Of a stretch of 64,000 bases of DNA, positions 47,883-52,899 are shown piece by piece. The stretch's first letter is position 1; each line of letters begins with the position of its first letter. Origin of the DNA: an uncultured Eubacteriales bacterium (GTDB taxonomy: Bacteria > Bacillota > Clostridia > Oscillospirales > Acutalibacteraceae); assembly GCA_949292775.1 (NCBI GenBank), contig CASFBL010000010.1:26129-90128 (forward strand). Direction: 5' to 3'. The notes under the pieces were generated by a model, which ran no database searches, was not told where the DNA came from, and worked only from the letters and a program-made list of their open reading frames with translations. The position numbers and the translations under genes were made by a program.

Positions 47883-50456
47883 ATGAAATTGCTGGTTTTA
47901 GACGGAAACAGTATTTTAAACCGTGCGTTTTACGGTATAAAGCTGTTGACCACCAAAGACGGACGATACACAAACGCCATTTATGGCTTTATGAATATTC
48001 TTTTGAAGCTGGAGGAAGATGTTTCGCCGGACACAGTCGCGGTGACCTTTGATTTAAAAGCCCCGACCTTCCGCCACAAAATGTATGACGGTTATAAAGC
48101 GAACCGCAAGGGGATGCCGGCGGAGCTTGCCGAACAGATGCCTGTGCTCAAGGAATTGCTTTCTGCGCTCGGTTATCAGATTGTAACCAAAGAAGGTTAT
48201 GAGGCAGATGACATCATCGGAACACTTTCGGCGCACATTGGTTCTTCCGACGAGTGCTATATTGCAACCGGTGACCGTGACAGCTTACAGCTCATCAGAG
48301 AAAATGTGCGCGTTTTGCTTGCTGCAACGAAAATGGGCAGACCGGAAACCAATGTTTACGATGAAGCACGCATTTTAGAAGAATATGGCGTTACACCAAA
48401 GCAAATGATTGACATTAAAGCTTTAATGGGGGACAGCTCTGACAATATTCCGGGTGTTGCAGGTATCGGGAAGAAAACCGCAGAAGATTTGATAGTTCGG
48501 TTTCAATCCATTGAAAATATTTATGCGCATTTAGATGATATTGATATTAAACCGGGTGTTCGCCAGAAGCTTGCGGCAGACAAAGATATGGCATTTTTAA
48601 GCTATAAGCTTGGCACAATCGATTTGAATGCTCCGGTTGAAACGGATTTAAAGCATTATATTCCCCAAGAGCCAAATACGCAGGAGGCGACAAGTCTGCT
48701 TGTGTCTTTGGAAATGTTTAAGATTTTGGAAAAGCTGCATTTGGACGGTGACACCGCCCCAACGCAGCAAAAGCAAACAGAAGACAAAAAGGTCCCTGTG
48801 CTTGAAGGTCTTACAAAGGAAGCACTTGATAAGCTGTCCGCTGAAAAATGTGTTTATTTCCTTTTGGATGCAAAAGCCGGCGTTTGGTTTTCGTCAGAAA
48901 GTTTTGTGTGCTGTGCCGAATTAAAAAGCAAGGAGGAACAAGCACGGTTTTTAGCGCTTTTATCTGACGAAACGCTTGAGAAAAAAGTGTTTTCCTCGAA
49001 AGAAGTTTTTGCATATGCCATGGAAAACGGGGCAAACGCACAAAACATCACCTGTGATGTTACACTTGGCGCTTACCTTTTAAATCCATCCGCCAAGGAT
49101 TACGATTTGCATCGACTTATACAGGAGTATTGCCCGGCAATAGTTTCGGCCGAGAGCGATTTGCCGTTAGCGTCGGACTGCGCTAATTTGCGGACACTTG
49201 CCAAGAAAATTGAAGTGAAACTCGAAGGCTTTGAGCAGCTTGAGCTGCTTCGGACAATTGAAATCCCATTGGCAGAGGTGCTTGCTTCCATGGAGCGTGT
49301 CGGGGTTTTGGTGGACAAAGAGGGGATTGTTCGCTTTTCTGAAATGCTTACCGGTCGTATCGACGCATTGCAATCTCAAATTTATGCTCTGGCCGGTGAA
49401 ACATTCAATATTAACTCGCCCAAACAGCTTGGCGTGATTTTATTTGAAAAACTGGAAATCCCGGCCAAAAAGAAAACCAAAACCGGCTATTCTACAAACG
49501 CCGAAGTATTAGAGGGCCTCGCGGATGAATACGAAATCGTGCGCGATATTTTGGAATATCGCACACTGGCTAAATTAAAATCTACCTATTGTGACGGACT
49601 TTTGAAAGTAATTGGCGAAGACGGACGAATCCATTCGAGCTTCAACCAAACGGAAACACGCACAGGCAGAATTTCTTCTACGGAGCCGAACTTGCAAAAT
49701 ATTCCTGTGCGGCAGGATTTGGGGCGCGAAATGCGCAAATTCTTCCTTGCGGGTGAGGGTAACTTGCTGGTAGACGCAGATTACTCCCAAATCGAATTGC
49801 GCGTTCTTGCCGATATTGCCGACGATCAAGCAATGATTGATGCTTTTAATGCGGATGCAGATATTCACACAATTACAGCTTCGCAGGTGTTCCATATGCC
49901 GCCTGAAATGGTTACGCCTTTAATGCGCAGCCGTGCGAAAGCTGTAAACTTTGGTATCGTTTACGGCATCGGGGCCTTTTCATTAAGCAAAGATATCGGC
50001 GTTACGAGAGCAGAAGCGGACAAATATATCAAAGATTATCTCCACCATTATGCAGGCGTTAACAGCTATATGGAAAAGGTAGTGGAACAGGCAAAAAAAG
50101 ACGGTTATGTCAAAACCTTGTTCTCTCGCCGGCGGTATTTGCCGGAGCTCGCTTCTTCCAATGGCATGCTTCGTGCGTTCGGTGAGCGTGTTGCGCGCAA
50201 TATGCCGATTCAAGGCACGGCAGCAGATATTATTAAAATCGCCATGATTCGTGTCTATAACCGCCTGAAAGCAGAAAAAATGCAGGCAAAGCTGATTTTG
50301 CAGGTGCACGATGAGTTGATTGTTGAAGCGCCCGAGTCGGAAGCCCAAAGAGTGGCACAGATTGTATCTGAAGAAATGGAAAATGCCTGCAAAATGAAAG
50401 TCCGTTTGAAGAGCGACGCAAATATCGGAAAAACTTGGTATGACGCAAAGGGGTAA
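47883..50456 (+). CDS. polA: DNA polymerase I
   Basis: PolA fills gaps in repair and Okazaki-fragment maturation. The 857-residue protein has the 5'-3' nuclease domain (1-290; DGNSILNRAFYG, EADDIIGTL, MGDSSDNIPGV), a degenerate proofreading domain (about 300-465) and the polymerase with motif A VDADYSQIELRVLA, the finger helix RSRAKAVNFGIVYG and motif C LQVHDELIVEA. Where active enzymes carry DxE, this one reads FLLDAKAGVW, so 3'-5' exonuclease activity is probably lost, as in Bacillus PolA. A TTGGAG-type site precedes the ATG. Confidence 0.95.
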   Translation: MKLLVLDGNSILNRAFYGIKLLTTKDGRYTNAIYGFMNILLKLEEDVSPDTVAVTFDLKAPTFRHKMYDGYKANRKGMPAELAEQMPVLKELLSALGYQIVTKEGYEADDIIGTLSAHIGSSDECYIATGDRDSLQLIRENVRVLLAATKMGRPETNVYDEARILEEYGVTPKQMIDIKALMGDSSDNIPGVAGIGKKTAEDLIVRFQSIENIYAHLDDIDIKPGVRQKLAADKDMAFLSYKLGTIDLNAPVETDLKHYIPQEPNTQEATSLLVSLEMFKILEKLHLDGDTAPTQQKQTEDKKVPVLEGLTKEALDKLSAEKCVYFLLDAKAGVWFSSESFVCCAELKSKEEQARFLALLSDETLEKKVFSSKEVFAYAMENGANAQNITCDVTLGAYLLNPSAKDYDLHRLIQEYCPAIVSAESDLPLASDCANLRTLAKKIEVKLEGFEQLELLRTIEIPLAEVLASMERVGVLVDKEGIVRFSEMLTGRIDALQSQIYALAGETFNINSPKQLGVILFEKLEIPAKKKTKTGYSTNAEVLEGLADEYEIVRDILEYRTLAKLKSTYCDGLLKVIGEDGRIHSSFNQTETRTGRISSTEPNLQNIPVRQDLGREMRKFFLAGEGNLLVDADYSQIELRVLADIADDQAMIDAFNADADIHTITASQVFHMPPEMVTPLMRSRAKAVNFGIVYGIGAFSLSKDIGVTRAEADKYIKDYLHHYAGVNSYMEKVVEQAKKDGYVKTLFSRRRYLPELASSNGMLRAFGERVARNMPIQGTAADIIKIAMIRVYNRLKAEKMQAKLILQVHDELIVEAPESEAQRVAQIVSEEMENACKMKVRLKSDANIGKTWYDAKG

Positions 50457-50466
50457 ACGGCCGTTC

Positions 50467-51345
50467 ATGAAAAATATATATTTTATTTGCACAGGCAACA
50501 CCTGTCGCAGTCCTATGGCAGAAGGGCTGTTCTGTGCAGAACTAAAAAAACAGGGTCTTTCTTCCCTTTGCAATGTAAAAAGTGCAGGTCTTGCAGCTTC
50601 TGTCGGCTCACCGCCGAGCGACTATGCGGTTTTAGCGGCGAAACATTACGGAGCTGATATGTCAGCGCACCGTTCCAATGCGCTGACACAATACGATTTA
50701 AGCGAGGAAAATTACTATATCTGTATGTCGCCCTCCCATGAAGCGATATTGCGGCAGTATATTCCGAATGCGCACTTCTTAGCCCTTCAAATTTCCGACC
50801 CGTTTGGCGGCGACCAGGCGTGTTATGCTGCTTGCTGTGCAGAAATTCATGCGAATTTGCCGCGTGTTTTCCGCTTCGTTTTTGGTTTTGACGAGATTCG
50901 TCCGATGGCAGAAAAGGATGTTCCGGCGATTGCTGCAATAGAAAACGAGTGCTTTGTACACCCTTGGAGCGCACTCTCTATTGAAGAAGAATTGAATAAT
51001 GAAACTGCACGGTTTTTTGTGGCTGAGCTCGACGGCACAGCAGTCGGTTATGTTGGCGCAAACAACATTTCGGGGGAAGTTTATATTACTAATGTCGCTG
51101 TGCTGCCAAGGTATCGAAAAAACGGAATTGCAAAAGCCTTACTGACAAAGCTGATTGCCCGGTGTAAAACAGAAAATGCCGAATTTCTGACTTTGGAGGT
51201 GCGTGAAAGCAACGAACCTGCCAAAGCGCTGTATCAATCCTTTGGTTTTACAGAGCGCGGGCGACGCAAACGGTTTTACACAGACCCGACGGAAGATGCG
51301 CTGATATATACATTGGATTTTACAAAGACAGAAGAAAGATTCTAA
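50467..51345 (+). CDS. Fusion of YwlE-type low-molecular-weight phosphatase and RimI acetyltransferase
   Basis: This 292-residue protein combines two enzymes. Residues 1-140 form a low-molecular-weight phosphatase with the P-loop C8-TGNTC-R14 and the general-acid motif SDPFGGD. Thr12 in CTGNTCRS equals the threonine that makes B. subtilis YwlE prefer phosphoarginine. Residues from about 143 form a GNAT domain with the acetyl-CoA loop RYRKNGIAKALL and the RimI hallmarks LEVRESNEPAKALY and FGFTERGRRKRFY, so it should acetylate the N-terminal alanine of ribosomal protein S18. I use the ATG at 50467, after AAAGGGG; an ATG at 50440 inside polA is possible. The frame is continuous with no internal stop. 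Confidence 0.88.
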   Translation: MKNIYFICTGNTCRSPMAEGLFCAELKKQGLSSLCNVKSAGLAASVGSPPSDYAVLAAKHYGADMSAHRSNALTQYDLSEENYYICMSPSHEAILRQYIPNAHFLALQISDPFGGDQACYAACCAEIHANLPRVFRFVFGFDEIRPMAEKDVPAIAAIENECFVHPWSALSIEEELNNETARFFVAELDGTAVGYVGANNISGEVYITNVAVLPRYRKNGIAKALLTKLIARCKTENAEFLTLEVRESNEPAKALYQSFGFTERGRRKRFYTDPTEDALIYTLDFTKTEERF

Positions 51346-51375
51346 AAGAGTAACTTGTATCTTGGAGGAATGAAA

Positions 51376-52899
51376 ATGCGTAAAAAACTTCTCGCGATGA
51401 CCTTCCTGTTTGTTTTCCTGTTTTCTTGCAGCGCCTGCACGGGGCGTGCTACACAGGTGATTCAAATCCCAAACGGCCCGGAAATCCGCTTATATGGTGA
51501 TGATGTTTCTGCCTCGTTTGAAAATGATGTTTTACAAATCACAAAAGCCGATAACAGCTATATATCAGACATTACGGTAGACGGGGAGCGCGTTTGGGCT
51601 GTCAACGATAGCTGCAAAATTGACAATTACTCGTCAGAAACAGAAATTTGTGTTACTGCCGAAACACTTGCCGAAAAGCCCAATCAGGAAATTACAAGTC
51701 TTTTGCTGTCTATGTATGATACCAGCCGTAACGCTTACAGCTTAACTTGGCACAGTGAAAAACAAGATGCCTTTTCTGTCGTGTTTACTGAAACCGCAAC
51801 AGGCACAGCATATGAGGTTGCTGCATACAGCGACAAGGCTTCGGAAGATTATGTTAACCGTGCGGTCATTTATGATTTGAAAGCGGGAACAGAATATTCT
51901 TATACGATTTTCAATTCCTCCGGTGAAGCAAAATACAGTGCCGCATTTACAACAGCAGAGGAATCGCCTGAGTCTGTAACATTTTTACATATGAGTGACA
52001 CGCAGGATGAAGAATACAATGGTGCGGTTTGGGAAAAGCTGTTGGCGAACGCTCAAACACATACAGATAAAGCAGATTTCATTCTGCATACCGGCGATAT
52101 GGTGCAATACGGCAACCAAGAGGCGCTTTGGGCACAAATGTTGTCCCATGTGCGCAGCTATGTGTCAACCATGCCGCTTATGTTGGTTTCCGGCAACCAT
52201 TCTTATTGGGAAGATTACACAGACAAAACCACAGACATTGAATATAATCACACCACTGTTAAGCTTCCAGAGCAGGATACAGCCAACGGGCAGTACTATT
52301 CATTCGATTATGGTGACATTCATTTTGTCGTGCTTTCCTCTGGTGATTCGAGCAAAAAAGGTGTAGGGAAAGAGCAAGTTTCGTGGCTTGAAAGCGATCT
52401 TGCCTCTACAACTAAATCTTGGATTATTGTTTCAATTCACAATCCGTTGTATTCCCCGGGAAAATATGGCTCTTCTGAAGACAGAAATCAGGTTGCACTT
52501 GCTTTGCGTGAATCCTTGGCACCGATTTTCAACCAATATGGTGTGGATTTGGTGCTGCAGGGACACGACCATGTGTTTGCGCTGACATATCCGATGAATA
52601 CGAATAGCGAGCCTTTACAAGCCAAAACGGTTGAAGAAAACGGCTGTACTTATTTTGAAGCACCGTCAGCTCCGGTGTATTTGATGTCCGGTGCGGCCGG
52701 AAATCAAAACCGTGGCGTTGTAGACGAATACAATCCGGCGTTTTTTGCAAAAACAAATCCGCTTGAAGACAACACCGCCGGCTATTCTGTTATTACCGTT
52801 ACGAAAGAAAAACTGACAGCGACATATTACGAATATGATTATGCAAACGATAAGACGGTTTCGGAATATAGTTGGGGAATTTTAAAAGAAGCGGCGTAA
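51376..52899 (+). CDS. Exported metallophosphoesterase (purple-acid-phosphatase-like lipoprotein)
   Basis: The 507-residue protein has a signal peptide ending near two cysteines (Cys18 and Cys21), so it is probably a surface lipoprotein. A fibronectin-like domain (about 75-195) precedes a calcineurin-type catalytic domain with the metal ligands in HMSDTQD, HTGDMVQ, SGNHSYW, SIHNPLYS and QGHDHVF. This order matches purple acid phosphatase-like enzymes that cleave phosphate esters outside the cell. GGAGG lies 7 nt before the ATG at 51376. It ends at a terminator shared with the convergent DUF4091 gene. Confidence 0.87.
   Translation: MRKKLLAMTFLFVFLFSCSACTGRATQVIQIPNGPEIRLYGDDVSASFENDVLQITKADNSYISDITVDGERVWAVNDSCKIDNYSSETEICVTAETLAEKPNQEITSLLLSMYDTSRNAYSLTWHSEKQDAFSVVFTETATGTAYEVAAYSDKASEDYVNRAVIYDLKAGTEYSYTIFNSSGEAKYSAAFTTAEESPESVTFLHMSDTQDEEYNGAVWEKLLANAQTHTDKADFILHTGDMVQYGNQEALWAQMLSHVRSYVSTMPLMLVSGNHSYWEDYTDKTTDIEYNHTTVKLPEQDTANGQYYSFDYGDIHFVVLSSGDSSKKGVGKEQVSWLESDLASTTKSWIIVSIHNPLYSPGKYGSSEDRNQVALALRESLAPIFNQYGVDLVLQGHDHVFALTYPMNTNSEPLQAKTVEENGCTYFEAPSAPVYLMSGAAGNQNRGVVDEYNPAFFAKTNPLEDNTAGYSVITVTKEKLTATYYEYDYANDKTVSEYSWGILKEAA

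Follow-up and report, generated by a model that had tools for sequence, protein, structure and literature searches.

Does an open reading frame that joins a protein-arginine phosphatase of the YwlE type to an acetyltransferase of the RimI type represent a genuine gene, and, if it does, what brings the two enzymes together? The question is raised by a locus in the window (the whole stretch of 64,000 nucleotides analysed here, from an uncultured Eubacteriales bacterium). A preliminary description, made from the letters alone, had proposed that the fusion links protein quality control to acetylation of a ribosomal protein, or at least co-regulates the two.

One reading frame, two enzyme families

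The features of the locus, all on the + strand of the window, are:

50467..51345, +, fused ywlE-rimI gene: a single ORF of 292 aa with start ATG at 50467; both halves are matched by Pfam/NCBIfam models, and homologous fusions exist
50467..50886, +, YwlE-type phosphatase half, residues 1-140 (fusion-half profile; Foldseek 4etn, 4egs, 4kk4, 4pic)
50887..51345, +, RimI-type GNAT half, residues 141-292 (TIGR01575 over cut-off; Foldseek best 9mto, 5isv, 2cnm)
50488..50511, +, P-loop CTGNTCRS (active site), residues 8-15; Thr12 is the PX5 specificity position
50797..50811, +, general-acid loop DPFGG, residues 111-115 (alignment of 28 fusions)
51196..51234, +, stretch from E244 to Y256, EVRESNEPAKALY; both residues are invariant in 28 aligned fusions
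47883..50456, +, polA, the 5′ neighbour: ORF named by eye, with its stop 10 bases ahead of the fusion ATG
51355..52899, +, metallophosphoesterase-like ORF, the 3′ neighbour: named by eye, sitting where most relatives read carry tsaD

Another in-frame ATG, at 50440, lies 5′ of the start ATG and, by ORF reading, falls inside the end of polA. The longer reading of the gene has 301 aa, and the residue numbers of profile matches below refer to it. The AlphaFold2 model of the fusion has a mean pLDDT of 96.1 and a pTM of 0.89; it contains no linker of low confidence, the final helix of the phosphatase (131-139) giving way to the opening GNAT strand at 143. The prediction is thus of two domains in a single, fixed orientation to each other. 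The top 12 Foldseek matches of the model include RimI (9mto, 5isv, 2cnm), YwlE (4etn, 4kk4, 4pic) and 4egs. Among the best 50 hits the longest alignment is at most 173 columns, so none of these solved structures spans both halves.

The phosphatase half has the LMW-PTP fold, the CX5R P-loop and the general-acid Asp-Pro, and matches Pfam LMWPc over residues 13-140 with 83.6 bits (cut-off 23.2). When it was used as a lone phmmer query, YwlE and tyrosine phosphatases were not separated, whereas a profile made from 28 fusion phosphatase halves separates them. Among solved chains this profile scores YwlE at 118–126 bits, 4egs at 132.5 and the best other LMW-PTP at 86.9; solved YwlE chains exceed all other LMW-PTP chains, 4egs excepted, by 31–39 bits. 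At position PX5 of the P-loop, according to the accessible part of a published study, Thr goes with phosphoarginine (pArg) specificity and Ile with tyrosine phosphatases (PMC8001253). The 83 genes of our family sample (150 genomes) that adjoin rimI carry T at this position in 77 cases, S in 2, V in 1 and I in 1, with 2 degenerate. Across the 28 aligned fusions C8, G10, N11, C13, R14 and S15 are invariant, as are D111 and P112, T12 is present in 27/28, and the GG of DPFGG is variable. Fusions L181 and L182, outside this alignment, keep both the P-loop and the Asp-Pro; L026, whose active-site Cys is replaced, was excluded from alignments A1 and A2 by the P-loop filter. Of the 31 complete fusions read, all but L026 retain their catalytic residues. 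Separate, weaker LMW-PTP paralogues hand-picked from the family sample have CxGNICRS and DPWY in 20/20 cases, with Ile at PX5. The fusion is the only LMW-PTP match in the window's genome, hence no such paralogue was found there.

Two other identities were considered for this half. The profile scores and motifs argue against a phosphotyrosine phosphatase, and arsenate reductase (ArsC) stays below the curated cut-offs (40.2 vs 215 and 37 vs 174.3 bits).

Several individual copies deserve mention. In L026 (1462-2349, G043), a fused copy, the P-loop reads GTGDTCRS and the acid loop with its DP motif has been lost from a domain that otherwise has its full length; an McsB match is still present in G043, and it is possible that this domain is a pseudophosphatase retained with RimI. 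L184 (G132), unfused and beside rimI, has a P-loop CTENKAR, and the McsB of G132 has diverged (27% identity); kinase and phosphatase may possibly have changed jointly. The PX5 residue is the tyrosine-type Ile in L180 (G105) and Val in L175 (G023). In L227 (G088) an open frame of 312 aa, not near rimI, carries a YwlE-type domain at residues 169-298, and the N-terminal part of that frame matches none of the query proteins used, TsaC included.

Turning to the GNAT half, the NCBIfam rimI model TIGR01575 matches residues 160-289 with 128.3 bits (cut-off 86.4); the narrower RimI model PRK09491 (NF007025) gives 76.6 bits and does not reach its cut-off of 173. The RimI profile has 10 matches in the window's genome, the fusion alone being over the cut-off and the other nine below it. 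We take E244 and Y256 to be the acid/base catalytic pair of RimI. The S18 ORF of the same genome begins MAYDKAQ (Met-Ala) from its first listed start, an unproven one, with a second Met 11 residues on; if the first start is the true one, it would suit an acceptor with alanine at the N terminus.

The preliminary description's central claim, a phosphatase and a RimI in one protein, thus holds: the 292-aa frame is single, both halves exceed their family cut-offs, and the motifs quoted, CTGNTCRS and DPFGG, are present at residues 8-15 and 111-115. Its naming of the two halves is probably also right. For a pArg phosphatase this is supported by the profile gap, Thr at PX5, the Asp-Pro loop, McsB in the genome and the co-occurrence given below; for RimI, by the sole gene over the RimI cut-off, the rimI-tsaD order in relatives and the kept E244 and Y256.

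Recurrence of the fusion and its operon

The same domain order was found repeatedly. In Candidatus Fimenecus excrementavium (DVGI01000015.1, L032; Clostridia per NCBI) the fusion is 77% identical to that of the window, with polA on its 5′ side and, on its 3′ side, the metallophosphoesterase-like ORF known from the window together with typA. In the family sample, where DNA was read for all full-length rows among the matches listed, complete one-ORF fusions occur in at least 24 of 150 genomes, the window's own counted (G041 and G045 are among them). In G058 and G065 the phosphatase frame continues into the GNAT domain until the contig edge ends it, which raises the total to at least 26/150. The order sample (295 genomes) added six further fusions (L048, L050, L055, L059, L064, L069), two from the window's family and four from two other families. 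In the phylum-wide sample (398 genomes) the window's own genome is the only full-length row among the matches listed, best-scoring first. Between the two closest fusion copies dN/dS (NG86) is low, 0.08 for the phosphatase half and 0.13 for the GNAT half, rough values as dS is above 1. The fusion is thus more than chance or assembly error: a sequencing error, named in the preliminary description as what would undo its claim, and a chimeric contig are both ruled out by the homologous fusions in relatives.

Related loci show where the two genes come from. Their usual order is polA-ywlE-rimI-tsaD: a polA relative lies 5′ on the same strand in 69/100 related loci, and tsaD lies 3′ of rimI on the same strand in 79/100, some flanks being short in both counts. 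Fusion of ywlE to rimI was seen in 31 of 97 loci read, of polA to ywlE in 0/67 and of rimI to tsaD in 0/78. The first of these values overstates the share of fusions, since loci L002-L031 were picked as best matches to the fusion and enrich the set for it; fairer figures are 24/83 neighbouring pairs or at least 24/150 genomes. The former comes from the 99 YwlE-type genes of the family sample, 83 of which adjoin rimI: 24 are fused to it, 10 are in the same frame with a stop between, and 49 are in another frame. Two further genes of the 99 are fusions cut at contig ends. For the remaining 14/99 no listed rimI match adjoins; five were re-read, including the two contig-cut fusions.

Where the neighbours are separate, ywlE and rimI overlap in 44/66 loci, polA and ywlE in 7/66, and rimI and tsaD in 22/78, the start codon being taken in all spacing counts as the one nearest to the upstream stop. 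A 4-base overlap is the commonest spacing of separate ywlE-rimI pairs (21/66). The same overlap is found between rimI and tsaD in 14 loci, and still these two are never fused among the loci read. The co-regulation that the preliminary description offered as its weaker alternative is well supported by these overlaps, given the start codons chosen.

On a tree of the 97 ywlE-rimI pairs fused and separate forms are intermixed, requiring at least 17 changes of state. The tree and spacing counts do not include the second copies L030 (G124) and L058 (G091), nor L054, in which the phosphatase lies over two frames. After collapsing branches with support below 80%, 90% and 95%, 14, 9 and 4 changes are left, respectively. 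The state thus changed at least four times, and probably many more. Shuffling the fused/separate labels at the 80 level gives a mean of 23.3 changes vs 14 observed; since shuffled labels need more changes, the state also follows kinship. The fusion probably derives from the coupled operon polA-ywlE-rimI-tsaD and would stem from joining of two genes and not from splitting of one; single changes of state on the tree may be joins or splits.

Two loci of this set are unusual. In L054 (G181) ywlE, 5′ of rimI, is broken across two frames, by either a sequencing error or gene decay. L057, from a genome of the same genus as the window (G098), reads polA-rimI-tsaD with no ywlE match between; no YwlE-type gene was found in that genome, and McsB is present.

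The kinase McsB and the t6A genes

We looked at the company of the phosphatase in whole genomes. The window's genome has a single McsB match (PF00217), within a ctsR-mcsA-mcsB-clpC run whose other genes were named by eye. As a search for McsB, PF00217 was silent in controls (0/14) that included B. subtilis, a species that has McsB; absences were therefore not trusted, and the McsB of the window's genome was used as the query. Of the 150 genomes of the family sample, 99 have a YwlE-type gene (threshold 96 bits, placed in a gap that reaches down to 76 bits) and 126 have McsB. Both are present in 95, the YwlE-type gene only in 4, McsB only in 31 and neither in 20 (Fisher P-value 8e-8, kinship ignored), four McsB-less genomes having been identified by elimination. 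Looking for mcsB alongside the fusion, part of a check proposed in the preliminary description, gave a positive answer. Among complete family-sample fusions, 23/24 are in genomes with McsB; the exception is G045, where McsB was not found in a genome 83% complete. Since 31 of the 126 McsB genomes, G098 of the window's genus among them, have no YwlE-type gene, the phosphatase is dispensable in the sampled group.

The second recurrent partner is t6A, an essential modification of tRNA. A search of a plasmid collection led to Monoglobus pectinilyticus, in which prfA is followed by a 508-aa TsaC-YwlE protein, rimI two bases on, and then tsaD. Fusions of TsaC to a YwlE-type domain are:

L208 4927-6453, Monoglobus WP_320690508.1: TsaC-YwlE one-ORF fusion with CTGNTCRS in the YwlE-type domain
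L223 and L224 (G655, G806), phylum sample: TsaC-YwlE one-ORF fusions, confirmed by reading the DNA, with no stop between the parts

In the 398 phylum genomes 33 rows among the matches listed for the TsaC-YwlE query cover both parts; such rows reveal only fusions and same-frame neighbours. Of these rows, the 12 loci fetched hold tsaC and ywlE as same-frame neighbours with a stop between, and the two rows with no stop are the fusions of G655 and G806. Altogether, ywlE stands behind tsaC or is fused to it in 15 loci outside the polA-ywlE-rimI-tsaD set. In Priestia the order is tsaC-mntP-ywlE-rpiB, and in Listeria rimI lies within tsaE-tsaB-rimI-tsaD. The arginine phosphatase thus accompanies the first or the last t6A step in many sampled Bacillota, and, with tsaD and tsaC close by, its recurrent neighbour is t6A modification no less than modification of the ribosome. 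This context fits the published control of TsaD by McsB and YwlE in B. subtilis, where TsaD carries pArg and its breakdown by ClpCP is governed through Arg282; many other proteins are pArg targets as well, and the main text of that paper mentions neither ywlC/TsaC nor RimI (PMC7546277). The accessible text of a study of M. tuberculosis RimI reports acetylation of several N termini in vitro, including the TsaD N-terminal peptide, and a RimI-TsaD interaction in a fragment-complementation assay; it describes RimI as relaxed in specificity and having other partners, and no contact with TsaB was seen there (PMC4926160). In the window's genome tsaD is on a different contig from the fusion. With tsaD moved elsewhere, any tie between fusion and TsaD in this genome must be one of protein contact.

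Why the two enzymes are joined

We consider it probable that the fusion is a bifunctional housekeeping protein, a predicted pArg phosphatase and a predicted RimI acetyltransferase that came from a coupled operon and keep independent active sites. The N-terminal half would be the cell's YwlE-type protein-arginine phosphatase, stripping the phosphoarginine marks set by McsB and sparing proteins from ClpC-ClpP. The C-terminal half would be the cell's RimI, the N-alpha-acetyltransferase of S18 and perhaps of other N termini. As neighbours in a translationally coupled operon, ywlE and rimI may have been joined by losing a short overlap or the intervening stop. Since the ORF is single, both halves are made together, and one protein would guarantee equal output of both enzymes; each active site would act separately, presumably with no cross-talk. 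Both halves are complete and above family cut-offs, and their nearest solved structures are YwlE and RimI. Counting against a bifunctional protein are the loss of the catalytic Cys and DP motif in L026, the 31/126 McsB genomes that do without the phosphatase, and the unreached cut-off of PRK09491. Equal production also leaves unexplained why, within the operon, ywlE and rimI alone fuse.

Part of the evidence could be read otherwise. Putative docking of the RimI half on TsaD or other t6A enzymes might bring the phosphatase along and shield TsaD from McsB/ClpCP, with the TsaC fusion as the equivalent elsewhere. This is unlikely, we think, for all that it agrees with control of TsaD degradation via Arg282 in B. 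subtilis (PMC7546277), with binding of TsaD and acetylation of its N-terminal peptide by M. tuberculosis RimI (PMC4926160), with tsaD on the 3′ side in 79/100 loci, and with the TsaC-YwlE fusions of Monoglobus, G655 and G806 and the 12 same-frame tsaC-ywlE pairs. Set against it are the distant tsaD of the window's genome, the absence of rimI-tsaD fusions (0/78 loci read), the many pArg targets besides TsaD (PMC7546277) and the lack of RimI-TsaB contact in the M. tuberculosis data available to us (PMC4926160). Carried further, the arginine phosphatase would be tethered to the t6A machinery, via RimI beside TsaD here and via TsaC in other lineages; McsB/ClpCP would set translational fidelity through the lifetime of TsaD, and the fusion would spare TsaD. 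Of the readings that the data allow, bodily transport of the phosphatase to TsaD would be the boldest, and we hold this wider scheme to be rather unlikely. A selectively neutral origin of the fusion, as a by-product, is improbable: coupled, overlapping neighbours may readily lose a stop or frame, some lineages may be shedding the phosphatase half, and the more frequent overlap of ywlE-rimI (44/66, against 7/66 and 22/78 for the flanking pairs) and the dead P-loop of L026 are in keeping with this, but rimI and tsaD have never fused among the loci read despite their 4-base overlap in 14, the catalytic residues are kept in 30/31 complete fusions, and dN/dS is low in both halves.

The link drawn in the preliminary description between quality control and S18 acetylation in particular is unsupported as stated, its tie to S18 consisting of family membership and the Met-Ala start, and the neighbouring genes (tsaD, tsaC) speak no less strongly for t6A. 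A mechanistic coupling of arginine dephosphorylation to S18 acetylation, as a single point at which ribosome quality is controlled, seems to us quite improbable. The GNAT half does belong to RimI, S18 begins Met-Ala at its first listed, unproven start, and in S. aureus, going by the portion of the report at hand, pArg was confirmed on ribosomal protein L17 and transcription/translation terms were enriched (PMC9112008). Nothing was found, however, that ties S18 itself to pArg, M. tuberculosis RimI is relaxed in specificity with other partners (PMC4926160), and the context genes are those of t6A and not ribosomal. Finally, a substrate other than phosphoarginine, phosphotyrosine or another, is very improbable for the phosphatase half. 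Its fold is common to tyrosine LMW-PTPs, the specificity call is a sequence-based one, and a single-sequence search fails to part the two groups; against these stand the profile gap, Thr at PX5, the co-occurrence with McsB, and the separate CxGNICRS/DPWY paralogues of the family sample (20/20 picked), though the window's genome has none.

Comparison with known systems

Both enzymes are already known, and the fused architecture was not found in the open-access literature searched: searches of one open-access library found no link of YwlE with RimI and no phosphatase-acetyltransferase fusion or bifunctional protein. Two well-known enzymes, for which the searches of that literature showed no connection, have been joined more than once, while equally close operon neighbours have not been joined in the loci read, and the same phosphatase has been joined to the first t6A enzyme, TsaC, in other lineages. 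Carrier genomes encode their predicted arginine phosphatase and an N-terminal acetyltransferase as one polypeptide. Taken with what is published on how McsB/YwlE control TsaD, the fusion makes a possible rule of arginine phosphorylation over t6A and translation directly and cheaply testable.

The phosphatase half resembles YwlE of B. subtilis (4kk3/1zgg) and Geobacillus (4pic) in fold, CTGNTCRS, DPFGG, profile score and the company of McsB/ClpC. Known YwlE is a stand-alone protein, encoded in Priestia two genes behind tsaC, whereas that of the window is fused to RimI and follows polA. The GNAT half resembles RimI, the S18-alanine N-acetyltransferase, of E. coli (5isv), Salmonella (2cnm) and Coxiella (9mto) in its TIGR01575 match and 31–34% Foldseek identity and, we assume, in the active-site E and Y; known RimI is stand-alone with S18 as acceptor, whereas for the fusion this acceptor is predicted. 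Other fusions are known or were found here. RimI is joined to TsaB in Bordetella and M. leprae, as reported in the accessible text, and thus likewise to a neighbour from the t6A cluster, but the partner is a t6A subunit and not a phosphatase (PMC4926160). The TsaC-YwlE proteins (Monoglobus WP_320690508.1, G655, G806) also join a YwlE-type CTGNTCRS domain to another protein, but there the phosphatase is C-terminal and its partner is the threonylcarbamoyl-AMP synthase. PDB 4egs (T. tengcongensis), labelled RpiB and LMW-PTP, is the best profile match among solved chains (33% identity), and the RpiB in its label suggests a natural YwlE-RpiB protein.

Some relatives carry extra ORFs between polA and ywlE: L005 at 888-1481, L012 at 475-1293 and L147 at 824-1801 (coding-strand coordinates). 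Judged by eye, there is among them an ORF resembling TIGR01440/UPF0340 and another resembling an rRNA methyltransferase (RlmA). In Priestia a TIGR01440 protein is annotated next to ywlE-rpiB.
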